Source of the DNA: Ruficoccus amylovorans
Lineage (GTDB): Bacteria; Verrucomicrobiota; Verrucomicrobiia; Opitutales; Cerasicoccaceae
Direction of reading: 5' to 3'
DNA length: 64,000 nt
Assembly (NCBI RefSeq): GCF_014230085.1
Contig: NZ_JACHVB010000014.1
Coordinates: 248,001-312,000 of the forward strand
The position numbers and the translations under genes are program-made. Under the pieces are notes generated by a model. That model did not search any database. It saw only the letters and a program-made list of their open reading frames with translations, and had not been told where the DNA came from. Shown here one piece after another: positions 43,249-62,921 of the stretch (position 1 is its first letter; the number at the start of each line of letters is the position of its first letter).

Positions 43249-43598
43249 GGGGGTGTTCCGGATTCGACCCGGAGCCGTAGGGCCTGGCTGCATGCCGGAG
43301 ATGATGGTTGGCTCCGTTATCAAATCCATCACACATATAAATGGCGAAACTGAATACGCCATGGCTGCCTAATTAACGCAGTCACGCAGAAGGGCTGATA
43401 CCTGTTAGGCCTGGAAGCGATCATCTAGCAGGCATAGTCTGATCCGGGGATCCGGGATCGGGCCGTACTCCAACAGGGTTCTCGCGACTGGAAAGCGCGC
43501 TTCATCGCGTTCCTGCCGTTAAATCAAACATGAGGCTATGTATGTAGACGCCTTGCTTGAAACCTCCGGACACGCGGGTTCGACTCCCGCCACCTCCA
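43249..43598 (+). ncRNA. ssrA: tmRNA (transfer-messenger RNA)
   Basis: The 5' end GGGGGTGTTCCGGATTCGACC and the 3' end CGCGGGTTCGACTCCCGCCACCTCCA are diagnostic. The seven-base acceptor pairs GGGGGTG with CACCTCC. The CCA is not encoded. The tag reading frame ends at TAA 43370-43372 with the deduced peptide tail NGETEYAMAA, and the resume codon just before it is uncertain. The T-arm/acceptor end is a classic integrase target, and foreign genes begin right after it. Confidence 0.93.
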
Positions 43599-43624
43599 CT
43601 TTTTATTTGTCCTAAATGTCTAAC

Positions 43625-43643
43625 ATTACGCAACTTGCGTAAT
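43625..43643. repeat. 19-base palindrome beside the ssrA junction
   Basis: ATTACGCAA-C-TTGCGTAAT, perfect arms around one base, 26 bases past the end of ssrA and within the first bases of the acquired region. It may be an integrase/excisionase or regulator site. A second copy of ssrA's end (attR) is not seen in the window. Confidence 0.45.
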
Positions 43644-43839
43644 TTAAACGCCTTAATTCGCGACAGAAACCCTGTCCGAATACCCCTCAATACGACTCAA
43701 ATCCCCCGTTTTGCCTTAACTGGCTTTAACTGAGGGTTGACCGGGGACAGGTTTTGAACCGGTGTATATTTGTTGACCGGTTTCAGTATTTTACAAAGCT
43801 ACTAGATACTGATTTAAATCATGCAATGAAGGGGGCTTT

Positions 43840-44619
43840 GTGAGCATCTCAAGACCAACCATCAAGCGGCTATTCGCAAAGTCTAATAATCAATGCGCAT
43901 TCCCAAAGTGCGCTGCACCGATAATTGTAAACGGCGTTGTCGTAGGGGAAATATGTCATATCCGTGCTCGCCGAAAAAATGGCCCAAGGTATGATTCGAG
44001 TCTCTCCCTGAAAGATAAGGATGATTACCCAAATCTTTTGCTTCTCTGTAGAACCTGCCATAAGCGGATTGATTCAGATGAGGCTACGTTCACGCCTGAA
44101 CTGCTGGCTGAGATAAAGGCTCTCCACGAAGCAAACGGGATTTGTGAGATAACTCCAGAGGTTGCCCGTGATGCACTTTTGCTAATCGATTCAAAGCAGA
44201 ATTCTCAACGCGTTACTGCAAAATCTAGCGGAAATGGTGTTTCGATCGCAGTGAATGGTGACGTAAATGCACCAATCAGCGTAAAGCCAACTCGCGAGCG
44301 TCGTGCGCCAAAGTCAAAATATCCAAGCAATGCTATCGGGGCAGACGCCAACTTGGCGGGGTATGTGGACTATTTGTTTGGCTTAGCTGTTGATTACTGG
44401 AAAGGCGTAGAATCAATGACCCCGGGGCGCTTGGGCAGGAAAATTAAAACAAAGTTCCGGTTGAAGACGCGAACTCGTCACCATCTACCGGTGGAACGTT
44501 TCAACGAATTGGTTGATTTTATTATTCAGGATATTCTTATTCCATCACCAGTGGGTAAGAAGCATGTTCGTGATGGGACGAAGCTGTGCAGTAGCTTCAA
44601 TGAATGGCGGGGACTCTGA
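43840..44619 (+). CDS. HNH endonuclease with extra C-terminal domain
   Basis: A 259-residue protein. The HNH core (about 20-85) has CAFPKCAAPI, ICHIRARRKNGPRYD and LLCRTCHKRID, so the zinc pairs and catalytic His are kept. A Gly/Asn/Val-rich linker (about 128-150, GNGVSIAVNGDVNAPISV) leads to an alpha-helical C-terminal domain (about 165-250) of no known family. The start is a GTG with a good Shine-Dalgarno (GGGGG). It is the first gene of the AT-rich acquired segment and could be a defence effector. Confidence 0.65.
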   Translation: MSISRPTIKRLFAKSNNQCAFPKCAAPIIVNGVVVGEICHIRARRKNGPRYDSSLSLKDKDDYPNLLLLCRTCHKRIDSDEATFTPELLAEIKALHEANGICEITPEVARDALLLIDSKQNSQRVTAKSSGNGVSIAVNGDVNAPISVKPTRERRAPKSKYPSNAIGADANLAGYVDYLFGLAVDYWKGVESMTPGRLGRKIKTKFRLKTRTRHHLPVERFNELVDFIIQDILIPSPVGKKHVRDGTKLCSSFNEWRGL

Positions 44620-44712
44620 GATGTTTATTCTTAACGATTTAAAAGTCAACGTCTTGCGATTCTTTGACTTAGACCTATGATTGTCCGCTCACTCTGGTAG
44701 AGTTAGAGTGAG

Positions 44713-45891
44713 ATGGAAATACGAACAGCCTACCAATCGTATCGCAAGAAACCCTACGTCGCCCGTTGGTCGGAAAATGGCAAGAGCCGTAACCGCTTCT
44801 TTGCCACAGTGAAAGACCGGGCGCAATTCATCGAGAGCTTCCAGCAGAACGCCACTCGCCAGGATACCTCGATCCCGCTCATCGAACCGCGCAAACTGAT
44901 TCGCTGGCAGGAAGCGGTCAAACTCGATCCTGCCGCCGACCCTGTGGAGGTTTACCGCTTCTGGCTCCAACGCAAACCTGCCCAAGCCCGGCAGATACTG
45001 CTCTCGGATGCCAGCCAAGCCTACCTGCGAATGATGGTGGAAGTCGGTCGGGACGTGAACTACACCGGCCACGCCCGCAAGGCACTTGAAGATTTCCGGG
45101 GCGGGGCAGGGGACAAGCCGATTCACACCTATGATGCCGAAGCGCTCCGGGAACACCTTTACGGTCTGCCCTACGCCGCCGTGACGATTCGCCACCGGCG
45201 TAGCCACCTTCTCTGCGCCTTTGCCTGGTGGGTGGAACAGGGATGGCTTGCGGAGAACCCGGTTGAAAAGGTGAAACGCCCACAGGTCGTCACTGATGAG
45301 CCGGGCATTTTGAGCGTGGACGACATGGCCCGTCTCTTTCGAATCAACCAAAGGGTCGATCCGGAGATATGCGGACTGCTGGCCCTCGGGGCTTTTGCAG
45401 GGATGCGAACCTCAGCCATTGCCAAGGTGGACTACGAGGAAATCGACTTTGCCCAGCGCGGCATCCTAACCCCGGCCAGTAAGACCAAGAAACGCCGCCG
45501 CCAGTGGATCGAGGGACTGCCGGATAATCTCTGGAAATGGCTGAAACGCACGCCTAAAGAGGCTTTTGATATGGACCAACGTCAAATCCTGCATCGCCGG
45601 GCCGAAGCCTACAAGCGGGCGGGCCTACTGGTGGAGTCTGACGACATCGCCTATGAAAATCGTAAACGGCAGGAACAGAGCAAGCCTCTGGTGAACTGGA
45701 AGCCCAAGTTTCCTCCGAAAAACTGCCTGCGCCACAGCTTTGCCACCTACCACGTCGCCCTGCACCGCGACCCCGGCAAAACCGCTCTCATCCTCAGTCA
45801 CCGCAACCAGGAAGTCCTCTACCAGCACTACCTCGGCATCGCCACGCAGGAACAGGCAGAACGCTACTTCTACATTGTACCTAGGCGCTGA
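44713..45891 (+). CDS. Tyrosine recombinase/integrase 1
   Basis: A 392-residue phage-type integrase. The N-terminal part (about 1-130) is a core-binding and arm-binding region. The catalytic residues are R232 (GAFAGMRTSAI), the Lys cluster KTKKRRR, R340 in NCLRHSF, H363 (LSHRN) and the nucleophile Y373 (QHYLG). Box II has Asn at 337 where His usually stands, the same in the second integrase. It lies about 1.1 kb after ssrA, as expected for an ssrA-targeting island. Confidence 0.88.
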   Translation: MEIRTAYQSYRKKPYVARWSENGKSRNRFFATVKDRAQFIESFQQNATRQDTSIPLIEPRKLIRWQEAVKLDPAADPVEVYRFWLQRKPAQARQILLSDASQAYLRMMVEVGRDVNYTGHARKALEDFRGGAGDKPIHTYDAEALREHLYGLPYAAVTIRHRRSHLLCAFAWWVEQGWLAENPVEKVKRPQVVTDEPGILSVDDMARLFRINQRVDPEICGLLALGAFAGMRTSAIAKVDYEEIDFAQRGILTPASKTKKRRRQWIEGLPDNLWKWLKRTPKEAFDMDQRQILHRRAEAYKRAGLLVESDDIAYENRKRQEQSKPLVNWKPKFPPKNCLRHSFATYHVALHRDPGKTALILSHRNQEVLYQHYLGIATQEQAERYFYIVPRR

Positions 45892-45899
45892 TAAGTGTT

Positions 45900-46310
45900 T
45901 TAGAGGGATACGAATCTTTTGATTCGACGAGCAATGGCATCTTCATTCCTCAATTTGCATTCCCACACCGTAAGGACACTGTAGCCGCGCTCTCTGAGCT
46001 GTCTGGCATCGCGTCGATCTTTCTTTTTGTTGTATGCGATTTTCTCGCGCCAAAAACGTTTGTTGGTCTTTGGGGGCTTATAACAGTGGGGACATCCATG
46101 CCAAAAACAACCATGAACAAAGATGCAAACACGTTGCTTGGGGAATGTGAAGTCGGGTTTTCCTGGAAGGCTGTGCAGGTGACGCCTCCAGCCAGAAATG
46201 CCGTTTTTTACCAGAAGCTTCCTCAGCCGTTCCTCCGTTGACAGATTGCCGCGCCCCTTGATCGCTGACATAATTTGAGAGCGCTTTGCTCTGTCATATA
46301 TATCAGCCAT
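45900..46310 (-). CDS. vsr: Very short patch repair endonuclease
   Basis: Cuts at T:G mismatches caused by deamination of 5-methylcytosine. The 136-residue product has the family motifs RSQIMSAIKGRGN, GKPDFTFPKQRVCIFVHGCFWHGC with the metal-binding Asp and Cys/His, and WEC near the end. It lies 69 bases beyond the methyltransferase stop on the same strand. Vsr typically accompanies 5-cytosine methylases, which fits the neighbour. Confidence 0.92.
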   Translation of the reverse strand: MADIYDRAKRSQIMSAIKGRGNLSTEERLRKLLVKNGISGWRRHLHSLPGKPDFTFPKQRVCIFVHGCFWHGCPHCYKPPKTNKRFWREKIAYNKKKDRRDARQLRERGYSVLTVWECKLRNEDAIARRIKRFVSL

Positions 46311-46379
46311 GCTCCAAATTTGGCTCGCTGCTGCCTAATGGGCAACGACAAACAATCCCGGCTTTATGCCTGGATGATT

Positions 46380-47363
46380 TCAGTTCAACGAATTGATTAC
46401 ATCTGTTGCAATGGCCTTCCCCATTTTGTAGGGGACGCAGTTCCCTATCTGCCGTGCACATTGGTAGATCGTTCCGGTGAAGTGGAATCCGTCCGGTACG
46501 CTTTGCAGGCGAGCAGCTTCTCTAATCGAAATCAAGCGGTCATATTCCGGATGCGCGTAGCGTCCTTTTGACAAATGTGGGAAGCTGGCTTTGACAGTTT
46601 TGGAAGGCCCCTCCCAGCTTAGCCGTCCCCAAATGTCGATGATTTTGCTCCTTACTTTCCACCATGACTTAGGAACCAACTCGGGCGCTTTCTCTGCGAT
46701 ATTTCTGATGTCCCCGCCTGGTGGCACATGGGATAAGCGTTCAAGAGCCAGTGGCGTTGGCTGAAACCATACATGCTGCATCTCCGGCTTTTCTCTGGCG
46801 CCTAACCCATCGAAGGCATCCCTCACTGTCTTTCGTTTGAAGCGCCTGGGGCGTGCGAGGTTGGGGATATCGTTCTTCGAGCAAATTGTAATCGACCTGG
46901 CACGGTTCTGGGGCACACCAAAATCAAGTGCGTTAACTAGAAATGCCTCAACGTGATATCCCATTCGTTCAAAGGTGTTACGGTTTTCCTCCCATACGGC
47001 TGACTTTAGGTACGGTGCAACATTCTCAATGACGATAACCTGCGGCTGGAGCTTTTCGGCCCATATGGGAACGATACGGCTTAGTTGGTTGCGCGGATCG
47101 TCAGCCGAACGCTTGCCACTGGTCGAGAATCCCTGGCATGGGGGCCCAGCAATAAGAATGTCGCATCTGCCTTCCGGGTGAGCGGCCTTTACGTCGCCAA
47201 CGACTATGTGATCTCCCAGGTTTCTTCGATAAGTGTTCGCCGCAGCTTCGTCGAGTTCGTAAGCCCGGACCAGCTGCGCCCCTGCATCCTGAAATGCGAG
47301 GCTGAACACGCCTGCCCCCGAGAACAAATCAACCACGGTAGGATTTGATAGAACGCCACTCAT
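46380..47363 (-). CDS. dcm: DNA (cytosine-5-)-methyltransferase
   Basis: A 327-residue C5 methylase. Motif I is LFSGAGVFSLAF, motif IV GPPCQGFSTSG with nucleophile C76, motif VI VIENVAPYL, motif VIII NRARSI and motif X near QIGNCVPYKMG. The target-recognition region is short. Together with vsr, a small XRE protein and the GHKL-nuclease gene it forms a modification/restriction-like cluster. The target sequence cannot be read from sequence. Confidence 0.92.
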   Translation of the reverse strand: MSGVLSNPTVVDLFSGAGVFSLAFQDAGAQLVRAYELDEAAANTYRRNLGDHIVVGDVKAAHPEGRCDILIAGPPCQGFSTSGKRSADDPRNQLSRIVPIWAEKLQPQVIVIENVAPYLKSAVWEENRNTFERMGYHVEAFLVNALDFGVPQNRARSITICSKNDIPNLARPRRFKRKTVRDAFDGLGAREKPEMQHVWFQPTPLALERLSHVPPGGDIRNIAEKAPELVPKSWWKVRSKIIDIWGRLSWEGPSKTVKASFPHLSKGRYAHPEYDRLISIREAARLQSVPDGFHFTGTIYQCARQIGNCVPYKMGKAIATDVINSLN

Positions 47364-47425
47364 AAATTACTAAAATCATAATATTTTTTTGACTTTGCAA
47401 GATAAATTATGTTTTACGTAATTTA

Positions 47426-47695
47426 ATGGCCATGAAAAGCAAAAATCGATTACGTGCGGTCAAGCTGGTCAACGCACTGATCGGTCAGGTACGAGCGTCG
47501 GAAGGTCGCAACATTACAGGCAAAGAAATCGCCGAAAGAATCGGAGTTCAGGCTGCGACAATATCCCGTTGGGTGAACGGGAAAACATCGTTAGATCAAA
47601 TCGAGTATCTGCTAACACTACTCGAAAGTGTCCCTCCTGAGAGGTGGCAGAGCGAACTTAGAAGTGCGCTATCAAGCAAATCTCGTAAAAAGTAA
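47426..47695 (+). CDS. Small XRE-type helix-turn-helix protein
   Basis: An 89-residue Cro/CI-type HTH (GKEIAERIGVQAATISRWVNG) with almost nothing else, the size of a C (controller) protein of restriction-modification systems. It diverges from dcm by 62 bases and converges on the GHKL gene. The intervening AT-rich sequence is a likely operator. Confidence 0.8.
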   Translation: MAMKSKNRLRAVKLVNALIGQVRASEGRNITGKEIAERIGVQAATISRWVNGKTSLDQIEYLLTLLESVPPERWQSELRSALSSKSRKK

Positions 47696-47699
47696 ATCG

Positions 47700-49823
47700 C
47701 TATTCAGAGTCATCGGCACTCTCGGCTTTGCTGTATATGTCGACGAGTTCTCGGTGCGCATTTTCTGATCGTTCCAACACGTCAAAAATATCGTAAACCA
47801 CCCAGTCGGCCCCGTCCGTGCGATCTTCTTCTTCCTGTTGGAGTCGTTGTATCTTAAGTGCTTTGGACTCGGGGTTTCTGCAACCAATTAGCATGCCAGT
47901 TACGTTATAGCTACTTTCTGACTTGTGAGCTTTTAGCCAGGTTCTGCTCATTCTGATATAATCTTTAAGTTGCATCAGATGGTCGTGATTTAAGCTTACA
48001 TTAGGAGCTTTTAACTCAACTATGACTATTCTTTTTAATGAGTCATTATTGAGAAGGAACACTAAATCGGGCCTCCGGTTTTCGCCGCCGTCTTTTACTT
48101 CGTCATCTGAATCCGGATCGTATCCTGCTTCAACGTAATCGCCTATTTTCAGGGACTGAGCCAACTTTTGGTTAACCAAGTCTTGACGTTGGTCGGCTGA
48201 CATAAACTGGAAAAACGTCGGATCAATTAGCCATGGATTATCCTCAAATAATTTTTGAAGCTCTTTTTCTTTCTTTGACTTTTTGAAGTCCTGAGCCTTG
48301 CAGATTTTTTTCAGGGCGACAATCCCATCTATACGCCCCTGTGCAAACGAAAGAAAATCCCCGAATTCTTGTTTTGTCAGCTCAGTGATTTCCTTCACCA
48401 CGGGAGATAGGTCGGGTAATTCGAGTGCCGCCAAACTTGAGATTGTGTCAAGAATGTCCCCCTTTCCGAGGCCTTTAACTACCAATGGCAGGGCCTGCTT
48501 GTAATACTTAGCTTGTGTCCTTTCACCAGTCGCTTTAGCTAATATTACAGCAATCTTGTAGGCTAAAGTTTCTCGATGCTTTGGTAAATTCGCAGAATCT
48601 ATCGTTTCTTTTGTGAACAAATCCTTTCGGACTTCTCTGGCGGCGGATTCGTCACGGCTCTTGGCAAACTCGTTCAATGCATTGAGAATTTGTGTTTGTA
48701 ATACAGAATGGAGGGGCTTTAAAAACTGAGTTTCCCATCGTAATCCTTGCCTGTCGGTTGCTATATAATCAATCGGCTGTTCGTCGATAAAGTCGGCGAT
48801 ACAAACTCCGTCCATGTAGCTTGTGTATTGATACCCATTGGCACTGCTTTTTACTTCAAACAATGACGGAGCGGCAGCTAATCTACCATGGGCATAGATT
48901 CTTATGCCGCGTTCGTTTTCCCGGAGTTGCCCTTTCGGTGGAGTAAAGCGTATCCTGTATTTGATCGTATATTTTTTCTCGTCACCAAGCTCGACTTCCA
49001 AGGAAACCATTTCTTCAAAGTCGTCATTCTCATTATCTCGTTCGGGAAACCCATAGACATAATCCCTCTTTCCTGCTTCGACTAAATCTTCAGAATTTCT
49101 ATCCTTCTTCCATATGGAGAAATCGTTAACATCAACCATCCTGAAATACTCAGCAACAGTATTGATGGCAGCACTCTGAGCGCCAGTAGTCCCGGAAAAT
49201 GTTAAGTTGTTTAAGGTGATGATTGTTCCTGAATCCCCCCCTGCCCATTCTTGATTATCTAGAGTGCGTATCGGAATACGTATGTCACCAGTTGAGTCGG
49301 CTGATAGCATTTGTTCATAGTCAAGGACTATCTCACGCGCGCAATTGTCCTTCTTTGACTTAGATGCGACGGTCATCTTATGAGCAATCCCAAATCCGGC
49401 TAGCTTACCAAGACCCTTCCGTCCCATAATAACACGTTTGCCTGGTGATCTCTGAGCCAAATCATTTCCCCTTCGCCTACGGCCTATTTCTAGAAATTTT
49501 TCCTGTAATTCTTGTCGTGTCATGCCATGGCCATCATCTTCGATCACTATCTTTATGGATTCGTCCAAGCTTGCTCGTTCTAAGGAGTTTCTAACATCCC
49601 CGTTTTTTGACTCCGCGTTTTTGAGTTCCCACTTCTTCCGAGCAACTTTTCGACCTTCCAGGATTTGGTTTGAGTCCATGTAGATCTTTGCATATGTTGC
49701 GTCTGCATCGTGTGAATTAGCTACAAATTCTACGAGGGCTTTGGATAGGCTTGTGTACAGATTTACACCCAAATCTTCAATCAAGTGGGGTTTTACGTTA
49801 AGATTGAGATAGTCTTGATCCAT
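47700..49823 (-). CDS. GHKL ATPase with C-terminal Shedu-like PD-(D/E)XK nuclease
   Basis: A 707-residue protein. The N-terminal Hsp90/MutL/MORC-type ATPase shows the N-box EFVANSHDAD (E32, N36, D39), IVIEDDGHGM and GRKGLGKLAGFGIA. The middle is helical with no clear family. The C-terminus starts with a DNPWLIDP-type lead-in and has D586 (RRPDLVF), E603-x-K605 (VELKAPN) and Q618, a PD-(D/E)XK nuclease of the Shedu/DUF4263 kind. The DNA is clearly AT-rich against the genome. It sits with dcm, vsr and an XRE gene, so a restriction-like role is proposed, not proven. Confidence 0.72.
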   Translation of the reverse strand: MDQDYLNLNVKPHLIEDLGVNLYTSLSKALVEFVANSHDADATYAKIYMDSNQILEGRKVARKKWELKNAESKNGDVRNSLERASLDESIKIVIEDDGHGMTRQELQEKFLEIGRRRRGNDLAQRSPGKRVIMGRKGLGKLAGFGIAHKMTVASKSKKDNCAREIVLDYEQMLSADSTGDIRIPIRTLDNQEWAGGDSGTIITLNNLTFSGTTGAQSAAINTVAEYFRMVDVNDFSIWKKDRNSEDLVEAGKRDYVYGFPERDNENDDFEEMVSLEVELGDEKKYTIKYRIRFTPPKGQLRENERGIRIYAHGRLAAAPSLFEVKSSANGYQYTSYMDGVCIADFIDEQPIDYIATDRQGLRWETQFLKPLHSVLQTQILNALNEFAKSRDESAAREVRKDLFTKETIDSANLPKHRETLAYKIAVILAKATGERTQAKYYKQALPLVVKGLGKGDILDTISSLAALELPDLSPVVKEITELTKQEFGDFLSFAQGRIDGIVALKKICKAQDFKKSKKEKELQKLFEDNPWLIDPTFFQFMSADQRQDLVNQKLAQSLKIGDYVEAGYDPDSDDEVKDGGENRRPDLVFLLNNDSLKRIVIVELKAPNVSLNHDHLMQLKDYIRMSRTWLKAHKSESSYNVTGMLIGCRNPESKALKIQRLQQEEEDRTDGADWVVYDIFDVLERSENAHRELVDIYSKAESADDSE

Positions 49824-49959
49824 GGTATTGATCTGTCGGTTAGACGGCTGAAGGTGAGGTGTATCATTTATTGACCAAATTGTTTCGCAAAGTCAATGCC
49901 CCCAATACAGAAGGAGGTAATCCGATATCGCATCCTGTTTGACATGACCTGTTCTCTGT

Positions 49960-51096
49960 ATGCAGGTCAAAGCACACTACCGAGAGGGGCGTCGGAGCCC
50001 TTGGGAGGCGCGTTGGTGGATCAACGGCAGGATGAAAACGCGTTTTTTCGGCTCGGAGCGGGAGCGGGACCGCTTCATCCGGACGTTTTCCCGGCAATTG
50101 GCTGAGCACGGTACGGATGTGTTCTCGATCGACAAGGCGCGGGTTCGGCGCTGGCAGGAGGCTGACGAGTTGACCGGCTTGGCGGACCCGGTGGAGATGG
50201 CCCAGTTGTGGGTCCGGGTGCAGGGGAGGCCTCGGCAGCGTACCCTCCATGAAGGCGTTGTCGCTTATCTGGAGCACTTGCGGTTGGCCGGACGCACGTC
50301 GGAATACATCGCTCACGCACAAAAGTCCCTCTACCGTTTCGCCGCCCAGTACGGTGGTCACGGACTGGACGCCATCACCGCCGAGCAAATCAGCGGGTAT
50401 TTGGGGCAATTGCCGTTCCAGCCGATCACCCTCCGGCACGAGCGCAGCTATCTGGCGTCAGCCTTTAAGTGGTTTTATCGGCAGGAATGGATTGCCCGCA
50501 GCCCCGGGGATGCGGTGGCGGTGCCTGCTGTTGTCGGCGAGGAGCCGGGTATCTTGACGGTGGAGGAGACCGAACGCCTCCTGCGGGCCAGTGAGGGCGT
50601 TGATCCGGCCATTTGCGGTCTCTTGGCCCTCGGGGCCTTCGCGGGGATGCGTTCCTCGGCCATTGAGCGTGTGCGCTGGGAGGAAATCGACTTTGCCAAC
50701 CGGGGCATCCTGATCCCGGCCGACAAGGCCAAGAAGCGCCGCCGTCATTACATTGAGGGCTTGCCCGACAACCTGTGGACCTGGCTGGAACGCACCCCGA
50801 AGGCGGCTTTTAGGCTGACACCCCGGCAGATCGCCAAAGCGCGTGAACAGGCCTACGAGAGGGCAGGGCTCCTCGTTTCCCGAGCCACCGCCCGCAAACA
50901 GGGCGTCTCGGCGAAGTTCCCTCCGAAAAACTGCCTGCGCCACAGCTTCGTCAGCTACCATGTCGCCCTTTACCAGGACCCGGGTAAGACGGCCTTGCTG
51001 GTCAGCCACCGCAATCAGGACATCCTCTGGCGGCATTACCTGGGGGTGGCCCACCGGCAGGCAGCCGAGCGGTATTTCTCGATTATGCCGGTTTGA
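49960..51096 (+). CDS. Tyrosine recombinase/integrase 2
   Basis: A 378-residue integrase related to integrase 1. They share blocks such as GLLALGAFAGMRSSAI, KKRRRHYIEGLPDNLW, FPPKNCLRHSF and SHRNQDILWRHYLG, and the Asn in place of the box II His. The codon use is GC-rich, unlike the AT-rich segment just upstream. A terminator follows at 51117-51147. It marks the left end of a second integrated element. Confidence 0.88.
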   Translation: MQVKAHYREGRRSPWEARWWINGRMKTRFFGSERERDRFIRTFSRQLAEHGTDVFSIDKARVRRWQEADELTGLADPVEMAQLWVRVQGRPRQRTLHEGVVAYLEHLRLAGRTSEYIAHAQKSLYRFAAQYGGHGLDAITAEQISGYLGQLPFQPITLRHERSYLASAFKWFYRQEWIARSPGDAVAVPAVVGEEPGILTVEETERLLRASEGVDPAICGLLALGAFAGMRSSAIERVRWEEIDFANRGILIPADKAKKRRRHYIEGLPDNLWTWLERTPKAAFRLTPRQIAKAREQAYERAGLLVSRATARKQGVSAKFPPKNCLRHSFVSYHVALYQDPGKTALLVSHRNQDILWRHYLGVAHRQAAERYFSIMPV

Positions 51097-60729: not shown

Positions 60730-61407
60730 ATGAGAATTGACACCGTTGCCGCAGGCATGAGCAAAGCGGCAATGCCCAAGGCGAAAGGACTGGCAGACGG
60801 GATCGAAGTGTGGTGCAGCTTCGACAAGCTGGTTTCGGTTGAGGATTTGAAGCCCAATCCGCGTAACCCCAATACGCACCCGGCACGCCAGGTTGAATTG
60901 CTGGCAAAGAACGTTCGTTACTTTGGCTGGCGTCATCCCATCACGGTCTCGAAACGTTCCGGCTTCATCGTGGCCGGGCATGGCCGATTGGAAGCGGCCC
61001 GCGAGCTTGGTGTCCAACTGGTGCCTGTGGATTACCAGGACTTTGCTTCGGACAACGACGAGATGGCCGTGCTGGTGGCAGACAACCGCCTGGCGGAACT
61101 GGCCAGTCTCGATCTGAATTCACTCGAAGGCATTATCGAGGAATTACGTGTGGCCGACTTCGACACCCTCCTGACCGGTTTCGATGAAACCGACCTGGAC
61201 AGCCTCTTGCAGGGTGATGACACCGCGCCGGGCGACGACGATGGCGATGACGAACTGGACAAGGGCGACGTGACGATTGCTCTCGGCCTTTATCGCTTCA
61301 AGCTGACACAGGAAGATTACCTCACGTGGATCGACAGCGTGAAGCAGAACGTCGGCTTCGACAAGGAAGCTGTCGTCAAGGAACTACGCCGGAGACTGGG
61401 AGCATGA
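60730..61407 (+). CDS. ParB N-terminal-domain protein
   Basis: A 225-residue product. A ParB/Srx-type domain is at about 25-110, with the motif GFIVAGHGRLEAARELG and a PNPRNPN lead-in. A long Asp-rich stretch (DDTAPGDDDGDDELDKGD) links to a C-terminal alpha-helical region. The first in-frame start is 60688 (TTG). The ATG at 60730 was chosen, with 60757 also possible. The TGA overlaps the next gene's ATG. Confidence 0.75.
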   Translation: MRIDTVAAGMSKAAMPKAKGLADGIEVWCSFDKLVSVEDLKPNPRNPNTHPARQVELLAKNVRYFGWRHPITVSKRSGFIVAGHGRLEAARELGVQLVPVDYQDFASDNDEMAVLVADNRLAELASLDLNSLEGIIEELRVADFDTLLTGFDETDLDSLLQGDDTAPGDDDGDDELDKGDVTIALGLYRFKLTQEDYLTWIDSVKQNVGFDKEAVVKELRRRLGA

Positions 61408-62921
61408 GCAACGTGACGCTGGAATCCATAGACGCGGTTCAGCCCAGCGCGTACAATCCGCGCAGTGCCGATGCCGAGCGGTTGGACCTGATTGAATTAT
61501 CCCTTCGCAAGCTCGGCTTCCTTGCGCCCATCTTTGCCGACAGTAACGGGGAAATCCTCTCCGGGCACCAGCGCCACCTGGTAGCCTCGCGCATGGGGGC
61601 AACGCAGATCCCGGTTTTCCGCACCAAGTCGATGCCGATTGCCCAGCGCAAGGCGCTCAACATCGTCTTCAACCGGGCCACAAACGATTTTGACTGGCAC
61701 ACCACGCCGGAGAAAGCCACCCGTGAACTGGCCTCGCTCGATGTTCACCAGTTCGCCGAATCCATCCCGGACAAAGCGGTGGACTCGCCGGAATTCATTC
61801 GTTGCCTGCGTCCGAGTCTGGTCAGCGTGAAGGAACTGTGCCGGGCCAACGCCAACTGCTGGCTCCAGTACGCCCGCAACCTTGCCCGCACGCTTCATCG
61901 CCAGGGTATCCTGATGCCGCTGGTTTGTCGCCGCGATGGCACCGTGGTCAACGGCATCGGACGGTTGGAGATGATGGCGGAAAAGAAGTTCGAGACCGCC
62001 CCGGTGGTCTATGTCTCCGACGAGGAAGCCGACTTCGCCCGCGCCATGATGAACCTGCTCTCGATGGATTTTGACGTGCATACCCGTTACGCGGATTTGC
62101 TCCGCTACAATTCCTTCCGGCGTGCCCGCCGCGTGCGGGAGGAGTTGGGCAACGGCTTCATCTTCGCCGTCCACGGTTCGAAGCCCTGCCACAGCTTTGA
62201 CATTTTTAATCCGAAGCAGCGTGCCGCCTGGGTGCGTGAGCACGGCACGAGCATCCTCGACTTCGGGGCCGGCCACTTGACCGAAACAAAGATGCTGCGC
62301 CGGGCAGGGCTGTCCGTGACGCCCTTCGAGCCCTACCACATCACCCGGACGGAAATAGACAAGGCCCGCAGCCTCGAACTGGTGCGGGAATTCTTGCAGG
62401 CCGTAGGGGAGGGGACCGAGTGGACTTCGATCTTTTTGGCCAGCGTGCTCAACTCCGTGCCGTTCCAGTCCGACCGCGAGCACATCGCCGTTCTGTTGAC
62501 CGCCCTGTGCAAACCCCACACCAAGGTGTACGCCTGTGCTTCCAGCGTGGGTGAAACTGGCTGGCGACAGGTCAACGGCAAAGCGTTCCTCAACAAGTCG
62601 AACTCGGGCAATATCGCCTTTCGGCTCGACTACGAACCGGGCGTGCGCATCGGGGATTTTCAGGAAAAACCGAAGGTCCAGAAGTACCACACGCAAAAAG
62701 AATTCCATCAGCTATGGACTCCCTTCTACCGCTCTGTTAGCATCCGGGAGTTGAGCAACAACATCACCGCCAAATGCGAACACGCCCGCCCGGTCGATAT
62801 CGACCGGCTCCTGGAAGCGATTACGTTCGAGTTCGATCTTCCCTATCCCGATGGCTCCCGTATGGGACTGGTGGACTTGGCCCGGGAAGCCTTTTCCAAA
62901 CGACTGGGGGTGGCGATATGA
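61404..62921 (+). CDS. Two ParB-like domains fused to a SAM-methyltransferase-like domain
   Basis: A 505-residue protein. Domain 1 (about 8-95) has SGHQRHLVASRMG, domain 2 (about 140-225) has VVNGIGRLEMMAEKKF, both ParB/Srx nuclease-like. The C-terminal half starts with ILDFGAGHLTETKMLRRAG, a SAM-binding Rossmann start. ATGA overlaps couple it to both neighbours. The combination suggests a DNA-binding or nicking enzyme joined to modification. Whether either activity is kept cannot be told from sequence. Confidence 0.68.
   Translation: MSNVTLESIDAVQPSAYNPRSADAERLDLIELSLRKLGFLAPIFADSNGEILSGHQRHLVASRMGATQIPVFRTKSMPIAQRKALNIVFNRATNDFDWHTTPEKATRELASLDVHQFAESIPDKAVDSPEFIRCLRPSLVSVKELCRANANCWLQYARNLARTLHRQGILMPLVCRRDGTVVNGIGRLEMMAEKKFETAPVVYVSDEEADFARAMMNLLSMDFDVHTRYADLLRYNSFRRARRVREELGNGFIFAVHGSKPCHSFDIFNPKQRAAWVREHGTSILDFGAGHLTETKMLRRAGLSVTPFEPYHITRTEIDKARSLELVREFLQAVGEGTEWTSIFLASVLNSVPFQSDREHIAVLLTALCKPHTKVYACASSVGETGWRQVNGKAFLNKSNSGNIAFRLDYEPGVRIGDFQEKPKVQKYHTQKEFHQLWTPFYRSVSIRELSNNITAKCEHARPVDIDRLLEAITFEFDLPYPDGSRMGLVDLAREAFSKRLGVAI

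Follow-up and report, generated by a model that had tools for sequence, protein, structure and literature searches.

A GHKL ATPase–Shedu-type nuclease protein encoded with a C5 methyltransferase, Vsr and a putative controller: a predicted restriction-modification module of Ruficoccus amylovorans

The joining of a GHKL ATPase to a C-terminal nuclease in one protein is already known. The paraMORC3 proteins were defined by GHKL and S5 domains followed by a C-terminal nuclease of the restriction endonuclease (RE) fold with an E-D-ExK signature; in the available portions of that paper, Dcm/cytosine methylases and Vsr are recurrent neighbours of these GHKL families, helicase neighbours are stressed for paraMORC3, and some paraMORC3 stand alone (Iyer, Abhiman and Aravind 2008, PMC2292703). 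For the BbrUII/HgiDII restriction enzymes, M.HgiDII is given as a 5-methylcytosine (5mC) methyltransferase (MTase) for GTCGAC and M.BbrUII as another 5mC MTase in the available part of PMC5867850; no paper treating HgiDII together with ATPase and restriction was found in a search outside which most subscription papers lay. VcSduA of V. cholerae, described in 2025, has an N-terminal GHKL ATPase and a C-terminal DUF4263 PD-(D/E)XK nuclease, and its defence is abolished by either the ATPase mutation E27A or the nuclease mutation K557A; for Shedu type I-D, the same source, in its available part, cites Gu et al. 2025 (PMC12137116). Here, a four-gene module at positions 45900–49823 of a 64,000-nt stretch of Ruficoccus amylovorans DNA (the window) is compared with these systems. 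It is a good new example of a restriction-modification (R-M) system of the HgiDII/paraMORC3 type, in an unnamed subfamily, and not a new kind of defence. The module is probably a type II-like R-M system in which a 707-aa GHKL-Shedu protein is the restriction enzyme, Vsr the repair partner and a small helix-turn-helix (HTH) protein the controller.

A preliminary description, made from the letters of the window, had placed four genes in this region, and open reading frames (ORFs) were found at exactly those positions, all four open. The predicted restriction enzyme is encoded on the minus strand at 47700–49823 (HATPase_c_3, 1.3e-19). The C5 cytosine DNA MTase, also on the minus strand (46380–47363, 327 aa; DNA_methylase, 1.1e-51), has readable PCQ, ENV, QNRAR and RQIGN motifs, and next to it lies a minus-strand gene for a Vsr-type mismatch endonuclease (45900–46310, 136 aa; Pfam Vsr, 1.1e-23; TIGR00632, 2.4e-34, at 118.2 bits against a cut-off of 97.85). 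The putative controller (47426–47695, plus strand, 89 aa; HTH_3, 1.4e-6) is divergent from the MTase gene, 62 bp away, and convergent with the ATPase gene, 4 bp away. Pfam, NCBIfam and PADLOC concur on the identity of the module parts. Two other features of the preliminary description were also borne out: the DNA is richer in AT than its surroundings, with a G+C fraction of 0.44–0.51 across 46–50 kb of the window where a 300 kb sample of this genome has 0.61, and the module is flanked by two integrases at 44713–45891 and 49960–51096, each with a Pfam match near the cut-off and a PHROG integrase match.

Relatives were collected by a genome scan via two short conserved ATPase patterns, as the best 80 of 131. 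A GHKL ORF was present in 110 loci, and the 103 loci with an ORF of at least 500 aa were aligned; the other seven, in which the longest GHKL ORF fell below 500 aa, were dropped (L015, L036, L037, L054, L065, L081 and L098). An MTase lies beside the gene in five of the seven, and none is seen in L037, where the gene lies at a contig end, or in L054. In a tree of the ATPase domain, built by a quick method with Shimodaira–Hasegawa-like approximate likelihood ratio test (SH-aLRT) support, the window fell in an 8-row group (99) within a 26-row group (100) drawn from Verrucomicrobiota, Planctomycetota, Lentisphaerota, Pseudomonadota and Thermodesulfobacteriota. Counts for this group retain the identical or near-identical pairs L003/L035, L040/L041 and L045/L046. 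The spacing from the asparagine of ATPase motif I to the aspartate of motif II is 58–96 residues in all 26 rows, against at most 42 residues in 73 of 76 other rows (the exceptions being L014, L026 and L094). This well-supported 26-row subfamily, with its insert of roughly 35 residues between motifs I and II, is new; neither subfamily nor insert was met in the literature examined, in the parts of it that were available and with no search aimed at the insert.

The preliminary description had ascribed a complete GHKL ATP site to the 707-aa protein, and the alignment agrees: E32, N36, D96 and G98 are retained in 102 of the 103 aligned homologues, the exception being L016, whose start is lost at a contig end, and in every row of the 26-row subfamily. 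An AlphaFold model, based on an alignment of 43 sequences, had a mean predicted local distance difference test (pLDDT) score of 84.7. Residues 9–390, which comprise the GHKL ATPase and an S5-like domain, matched the MORC3 ATPase best (Z 24.1, 296 residues aligned, 3.1 Å), followed by other MORCs, SMCHD1, Hsp90 and MutL (Z 18.1). The GHKL motifs and S5-like domain of the paraMORC3 definition are thus present by motif and by this MORC3 match. A predicted helical linker occupies residues from about 395 to 510 in the model. Searches of the PDB with the whole protein returned Hsp90-type ATPases: four matches by sequence, and 135 by profile, of which the 60 shown were all Hsp90-type except one MutL.

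The nuclease could be placed only after residues 500–707 had been folded alone (mean pLDDT 86.4). A PD-(D/E)XK fold of the C-terminus had been named beforehand as a test, and this is the fold that structure prediction gave, at residues from about 516 to 707. The best PDB match was the Bacillus cereus Shedu nuclease (8ti9_C, Foldseek 2.7e-4); two Shedu chains (2.7e-4 and 3.7e-4) were the sole matches at or below 0.001. In a VIA-align comparison of the Foldseek matches, the Shedu nuclease gave Z 10.8 over 153 aligned residues at 4.4 Å, ahead of EndoMS (5gkj, Z 9.1, 22% identity), Pyrococcus NucS (8.7) and N.BspD6I (8.6), and E. coli SduA gave Z 8.2. The proposed pattern D586/E603-x-K605/Q618 also held up: within the 26-row subfamily D586 is D in 24 rows, E603 is E in 24, K605 is K in 25 and Q618 is Q in 25, with W531 W in 25. 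D586 and E603-x-K605, which correspond to the D-ExK part of the paraMORC3 nuclease signature, are placed in the RE fold. The D-E-K triad is present in 24 of 26 subfamily rows against 27 of the 77 other rows, many of which are more distant GHKL branches where the alignment is less sure. The earlier label Shedu-type stood in one respect and fell short in another. It is correct for the predicted fold, for which Shedu is the best solved match, and falls short of a formal sequence call: Pfam SduA_C (DUF4263) scored 22.5 bits with the whole protein and 25.3 bits with the domain alone, below its cut-off of 27. Of the 43 sequences in the domain alignment, 37 match the same profile at E 0.1 or better (best 2.2e-7), and a PDB search with the nuclease-domain profile returned nothing below E 0.1 (NucS 0.14, Shedu 8ti9 0.61).

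Modification-dependent enzymes are among the PD-(D/E)XK matches (MspJI, Z 8.1; AspBHI, Z 7.6), as would fit a type IV enzyme cutting foreign modified DNA. A cognate MTase beside such an enzyme would make self DNA a target, and a decayed, inactive system is at odds with four open reading frames and intact catalytic residues; taken together, a type IV or decayed system is the least probable of the alternatives considered.

The profile NF050001 ('BbrUII/HgiDII family restriction enzyme') covered residues 87–696 of the protein (5.8e-58), matching profile positions 45–644 of 659 in two stretches, and hence most of its length. Three subfamily members scanned with it (the window, L031 and L043) scored 190–197 bits, and the curated cut-off of 550 bits was passed by two of ten proteins scanned, L068 (754 bits) and L080 (657 bits), both of which have the GHKL ATPase and the nuclease triad. 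The cut-off was reached in none of 273 genomes of the order and none of 14 control genomes. Because the match is long, yet the subfamily scores far below L068 and L080, the window group is, as judged from these profile scores, an unnamed subfamily that is sister to the HgiDII/BbrUII enzymes.

All 26 subfamily rows have a C5 MTase gene adjoining the ATPase gene, with only a cut MTase end visible in L033. In 22 subfamily loci each side of the ATPase gene shows 2 kb or more, and every one of these loci has an MTase within 2 kb of that gene; this set includes the window and two near-copy pairs and omits L002, L003, L033 and L035, which have less than 2 kb on one side. With the same flank requirement, an MTase lies within 2 kb in 15 of 18 other triad-bearing rows. 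As a control, an MTase was found within 1 kb at 0 of 66 points near locus ends, whereas 28 of the 33 ATPase genes in the same loci had one. The MTase and ATPase genes stay linked while their order and strand change from locus to locus. A single branch with SH-aLRT 100 sets the subfamily MTases (25 rows) apart from the others, and MTase distances correlate with ATPase-nuclease distances (r 0.69; as high in 0 of 5000 permutations), as measured in 22 rows with L035, L041, L046 and L033 left out. The adjacency in 26 of 26 rows, the 22 of 22 loci and the correlation together indicate a linked and co-inherited MTase and predicted restriction gene, as expected of a type II R-M system. As a side observation, GHKL proteins that lack the nuclease triad (L060, L083, L085, L091–L093 and others) are mostly MTase-linked too, with an MTase within 2 kb in 20 of the 25 that have enough flank; L060 has none within 2 kb and carries a TIGR02391 domain at the protein end.

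Several observations weigh against a type II-like system. The window scores 196.9 bits with NF050001 and so lies outside the named equivalog family, and the ATPase part of that profile gives weak matches in 256 of the order's 273 genomes and in 10 of the 14 control genomes, so that its 45/45 matches in A5 prove little and all that counts is how long and how strong the match of the window is. The structural match to the Shedu nuclease is moderate. Two of the 26 subfamily rows do not have the triad, L051 by substitution and L055 in a gene split into two ORFs. An MTase within 2 kb is missing in three of the 18 triad-bearing relatives with enough flank outside the subfamily: L063, and both of the proteins that score above the NF050001 cut-off, L068 and L080; the dropped fragment L054 has no MTase in its visible 7.9 kb upstream and 1.7 kb downstream. 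VcSduA, finally, defends as a single gene, according to the available part of PMC12137116. From the MTase-free relatives and the single-gene test of VcSduA it follows that a linked MTase is not always needed in the wider family, and such cases fit a defence like Shedu type I-D, in which the GHKL-nuclease protein alone would sense phage DNA ends or structures and the MTase and Vsr would form an independent pair. That VcSduA shares the architecture and that the nuclease's best fold match is Shedu also speak for this alternative. It is nevertheless unlikely for the window, where the constant linkage in the subfamily, the tracking of nuclease distances by MTase distances and the persistence of linkage through changes of order and strand all point to a joint system. 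The preliminary description had regarded homologues with neither methylase neighbours nor phage or plasmid protection as a refutation; all subfamily members with enough flank have a methylase within 2 kb, and loci without one are found among more distant relatives and in the dropped fragment L054. Of the readings considered, the one it proposed, a restriction arm gated by ATP and guarded by methylation, has the best support from the predicted fold and the methylase linkage.

Vsr is a less constant companion, found within 4 kb in 9 of the 22 subfamily loci with enough flank. On a Rhizobium daejeonense plasmid, a 'very short patch repair endonuclease', an 'ATP-binding protein' and a 'DNA cytosine methyltransferase' are annotated in a row, so that annotation leaves the enzyme unnamed. 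The subfamily suggests that 'ATP-binding protein' genes beside a cytosine methyltransferase and Vsr are restriction enzymes. The Vsr gene, the MutL match of the ATPase half, the EndoMS and NucS folds next in line after Shedu and an NCBIfam NucS match at residues 590–646 (1.6e-4) could also be accommodated by DNA repair, with a MutL-like ATPase and an EndoMS-like nuclease acting with Vsr on deaminated 5-methylcytosine produced by the MTase. This is quite improbable given the looser linkage of Vsr than of the MTase, the island context of the module, the sister family's name as restriction enzymes, and a patchy distribution, near-full-length protein matches in 387 genomes of the phylum being confined to the window, G169 and G273. 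A relative module was seen in a Neisseria gonorrhoeae record (L124:3107–6072; MTase, GHKL ATPase and Vsr), in which the MTase gene and the ATPase gene are each divided among two or more ORFs.

Small genes divergent from the MTase recur across several loci. In L031 a gene homologous to the HTH gene of the window stands beside the MTase start; another small family is divergent from the MTase in nine other loci, with weak Pfam HTH matches in two of eight scanned, and small genes judged by eye appear XRE-like in L052 and ribbon-helix-helix-like in L039 and L042. The divergent MTase/HTH promoter region (47364–47425) contains TTGACTTTGCAAGATA at 47389–47404, and a similar motif, TTGACTTTGCGAAACA, lies upstream of the ATPase gene on the minus strand (49881–49896). 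The two agree at 13 of 16 positions, a weak likeness reached by 17 of 500 single-base shuffles; TTGACTTTGCGAAACA is possibly an operator shared with TTGACTTTGCAAGATA, or may simply be a -35 box.

In the R-M system proposed here, the C5 MTase would mark a short host sequence and so protect host sites. The GHKL ATPase of the 707-aa protein would dimerise on ATP, and the dimer, by analogy with MORC, MutL and Hsp90, may close as a clamp on DNA; closure would position and license the C-terminal Shedu-type nuclease to cut unmarked DNA, an ATP gate suggested by MORC, MutL and VcSduA. Vsr would repair the T:G mismatches left by deamination of methylated cytosine, limiting mutation at the mark, and the HTH protein would time expression, setting the balance of MTase and nuclease. 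The module bears on how a nuclease that has to leave host DNA uncut may be controlled by an energy-driven GHKL clamp, and its own MTase offers a clean on/off comparison, the same DNA with or without the mark. A wider reading, possible though doubtful, is that GHKL-Shedu proteins are one family with two modes, methylation-guarded restriction (the HgiDII type and the window subfamily) and MTase-free 'Shedu I-D', with the ATPase clamp as a shared self/non-self switch that the subfamily insert tunes to the unmethylated site. If true, the module would link Shedu immunity and sequence-specific restriction for comparison within one kind of protein.

Compared with the published description of paraMORC3, the module shares the GHKL, S5 and RE-fold nuclease domains and the Dcm/Vsr neighbours. 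No helicase gene fits between its four genes, no wider search for helicases having been made, and neither a relation to Shedu nor a controller figures in the available portions of PMC2292703. The BbrUII/HgiDII enzymes resemble it in the NF050001 match, the GHKL ATPase, the nuclease triad and the C5 MTase partners; it differs in its score (197 bits against 550), the ATPase insert and an MTase clade of its own. VcSduA, compared by its published description, has the same architecture but acts as a single gene, and the word 'methyltransferase' is absent from the main text of PMC12137116, as available. The window's Vsr passes the TIGR00632 cut-off like the Vsr of very short patch repair, but is linked to an R-M-type MTase and a predicted nuclease.

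The HgiDII target GTCGAC is rare in the 300 kb host sample (17 seen against 144 expected, 0.12), but CTCGAG is about equally so (19 against 148, 0.13), and relatives show a partial shortage of GTCGAC as well (observed/expected 0.38 in G128, 0.56 in G163 and 0.79 in G442); GTCGAC avoidance was therefore dropped as evidence of the target. Many palindromic six-mers are avoided in the host sample, these two the most strongly, and more than in the samples of the three relatives.

The module and its two integrases lie just behind a transfer-messenger RNA (tmRNA) gene, ssrA. About 72 kb further on in the same contig there is an imperfect repeat of the tmRNA end and adjoining DNA (171 bp, 94%), together with a truncated gene that duplicates the first integrase (92% over 611 bp). 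There, in place of the HNH gene of the window, stands a gene for a 612-aa restriction-type protein (PADLOC Orf5, 1.3e-85; SspE and type IV profiles), which we take to be DUF262-type. A search for other copies of the 24-nt tmRNA end with at most two mismatches found none, and a shorter imperfect copy was found. Behind the tmRNA gene of the congener G163 come a small ORF, an integrase 88% identical and then a complete Wadjet JetABCD set, so that Wadjet occupies the place of the window's R-M module behind the same integrase family. A further new observation is that the module is cargo of an integrase at the ssrA site, with Wadjet following this integrase in a congener. The DNA of the module itself had no match in nine other genomes of the family that were searched, where matches stop before 45900. 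The 3' end of ssrA (43249–45891 in the window; L137; L138) looks like a hotspot at which one integrase family is associated with differing defence cargo: the R-M module in the window, Wadjet in G163, and the restriction gene by the second integrase copy in the same genome.

The HNH gene of the window (43840–44619), between tmRNA and integrase, encodes 259 aa, of which the first 99 residues match the PADLOC candidate PDC-M68A (4.3e-28) and HNH effectors of the CBASS type (1.1e-21). A different island, of about 14.5 kb, was seen in the congener G128 (L139:1051–15652), extending from the tmRNA to an imperfect repeat of the tmRNA end (58 bp, 91%); it holds, as judged by eye, another integrase-like ORF and a 1401-aa protein with a P-loop-like start, neither with a PADLOC match at 1e-5. 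An IMG/VR contig (L111) starts at the end of the ATPase gene, and in one pattern-based scan of viral contigs the sole find was a contig with 100% identity to the window. Phage replication genes (PHROG) lie on the right-hand side of the second integrase. On this phage side, a 531-aa protein (61326–62921) has a ParB-like N-terminus (PHROG 5475, 1.9e-107) and also matches a family named DNA methyltransferase (9.1e-26).

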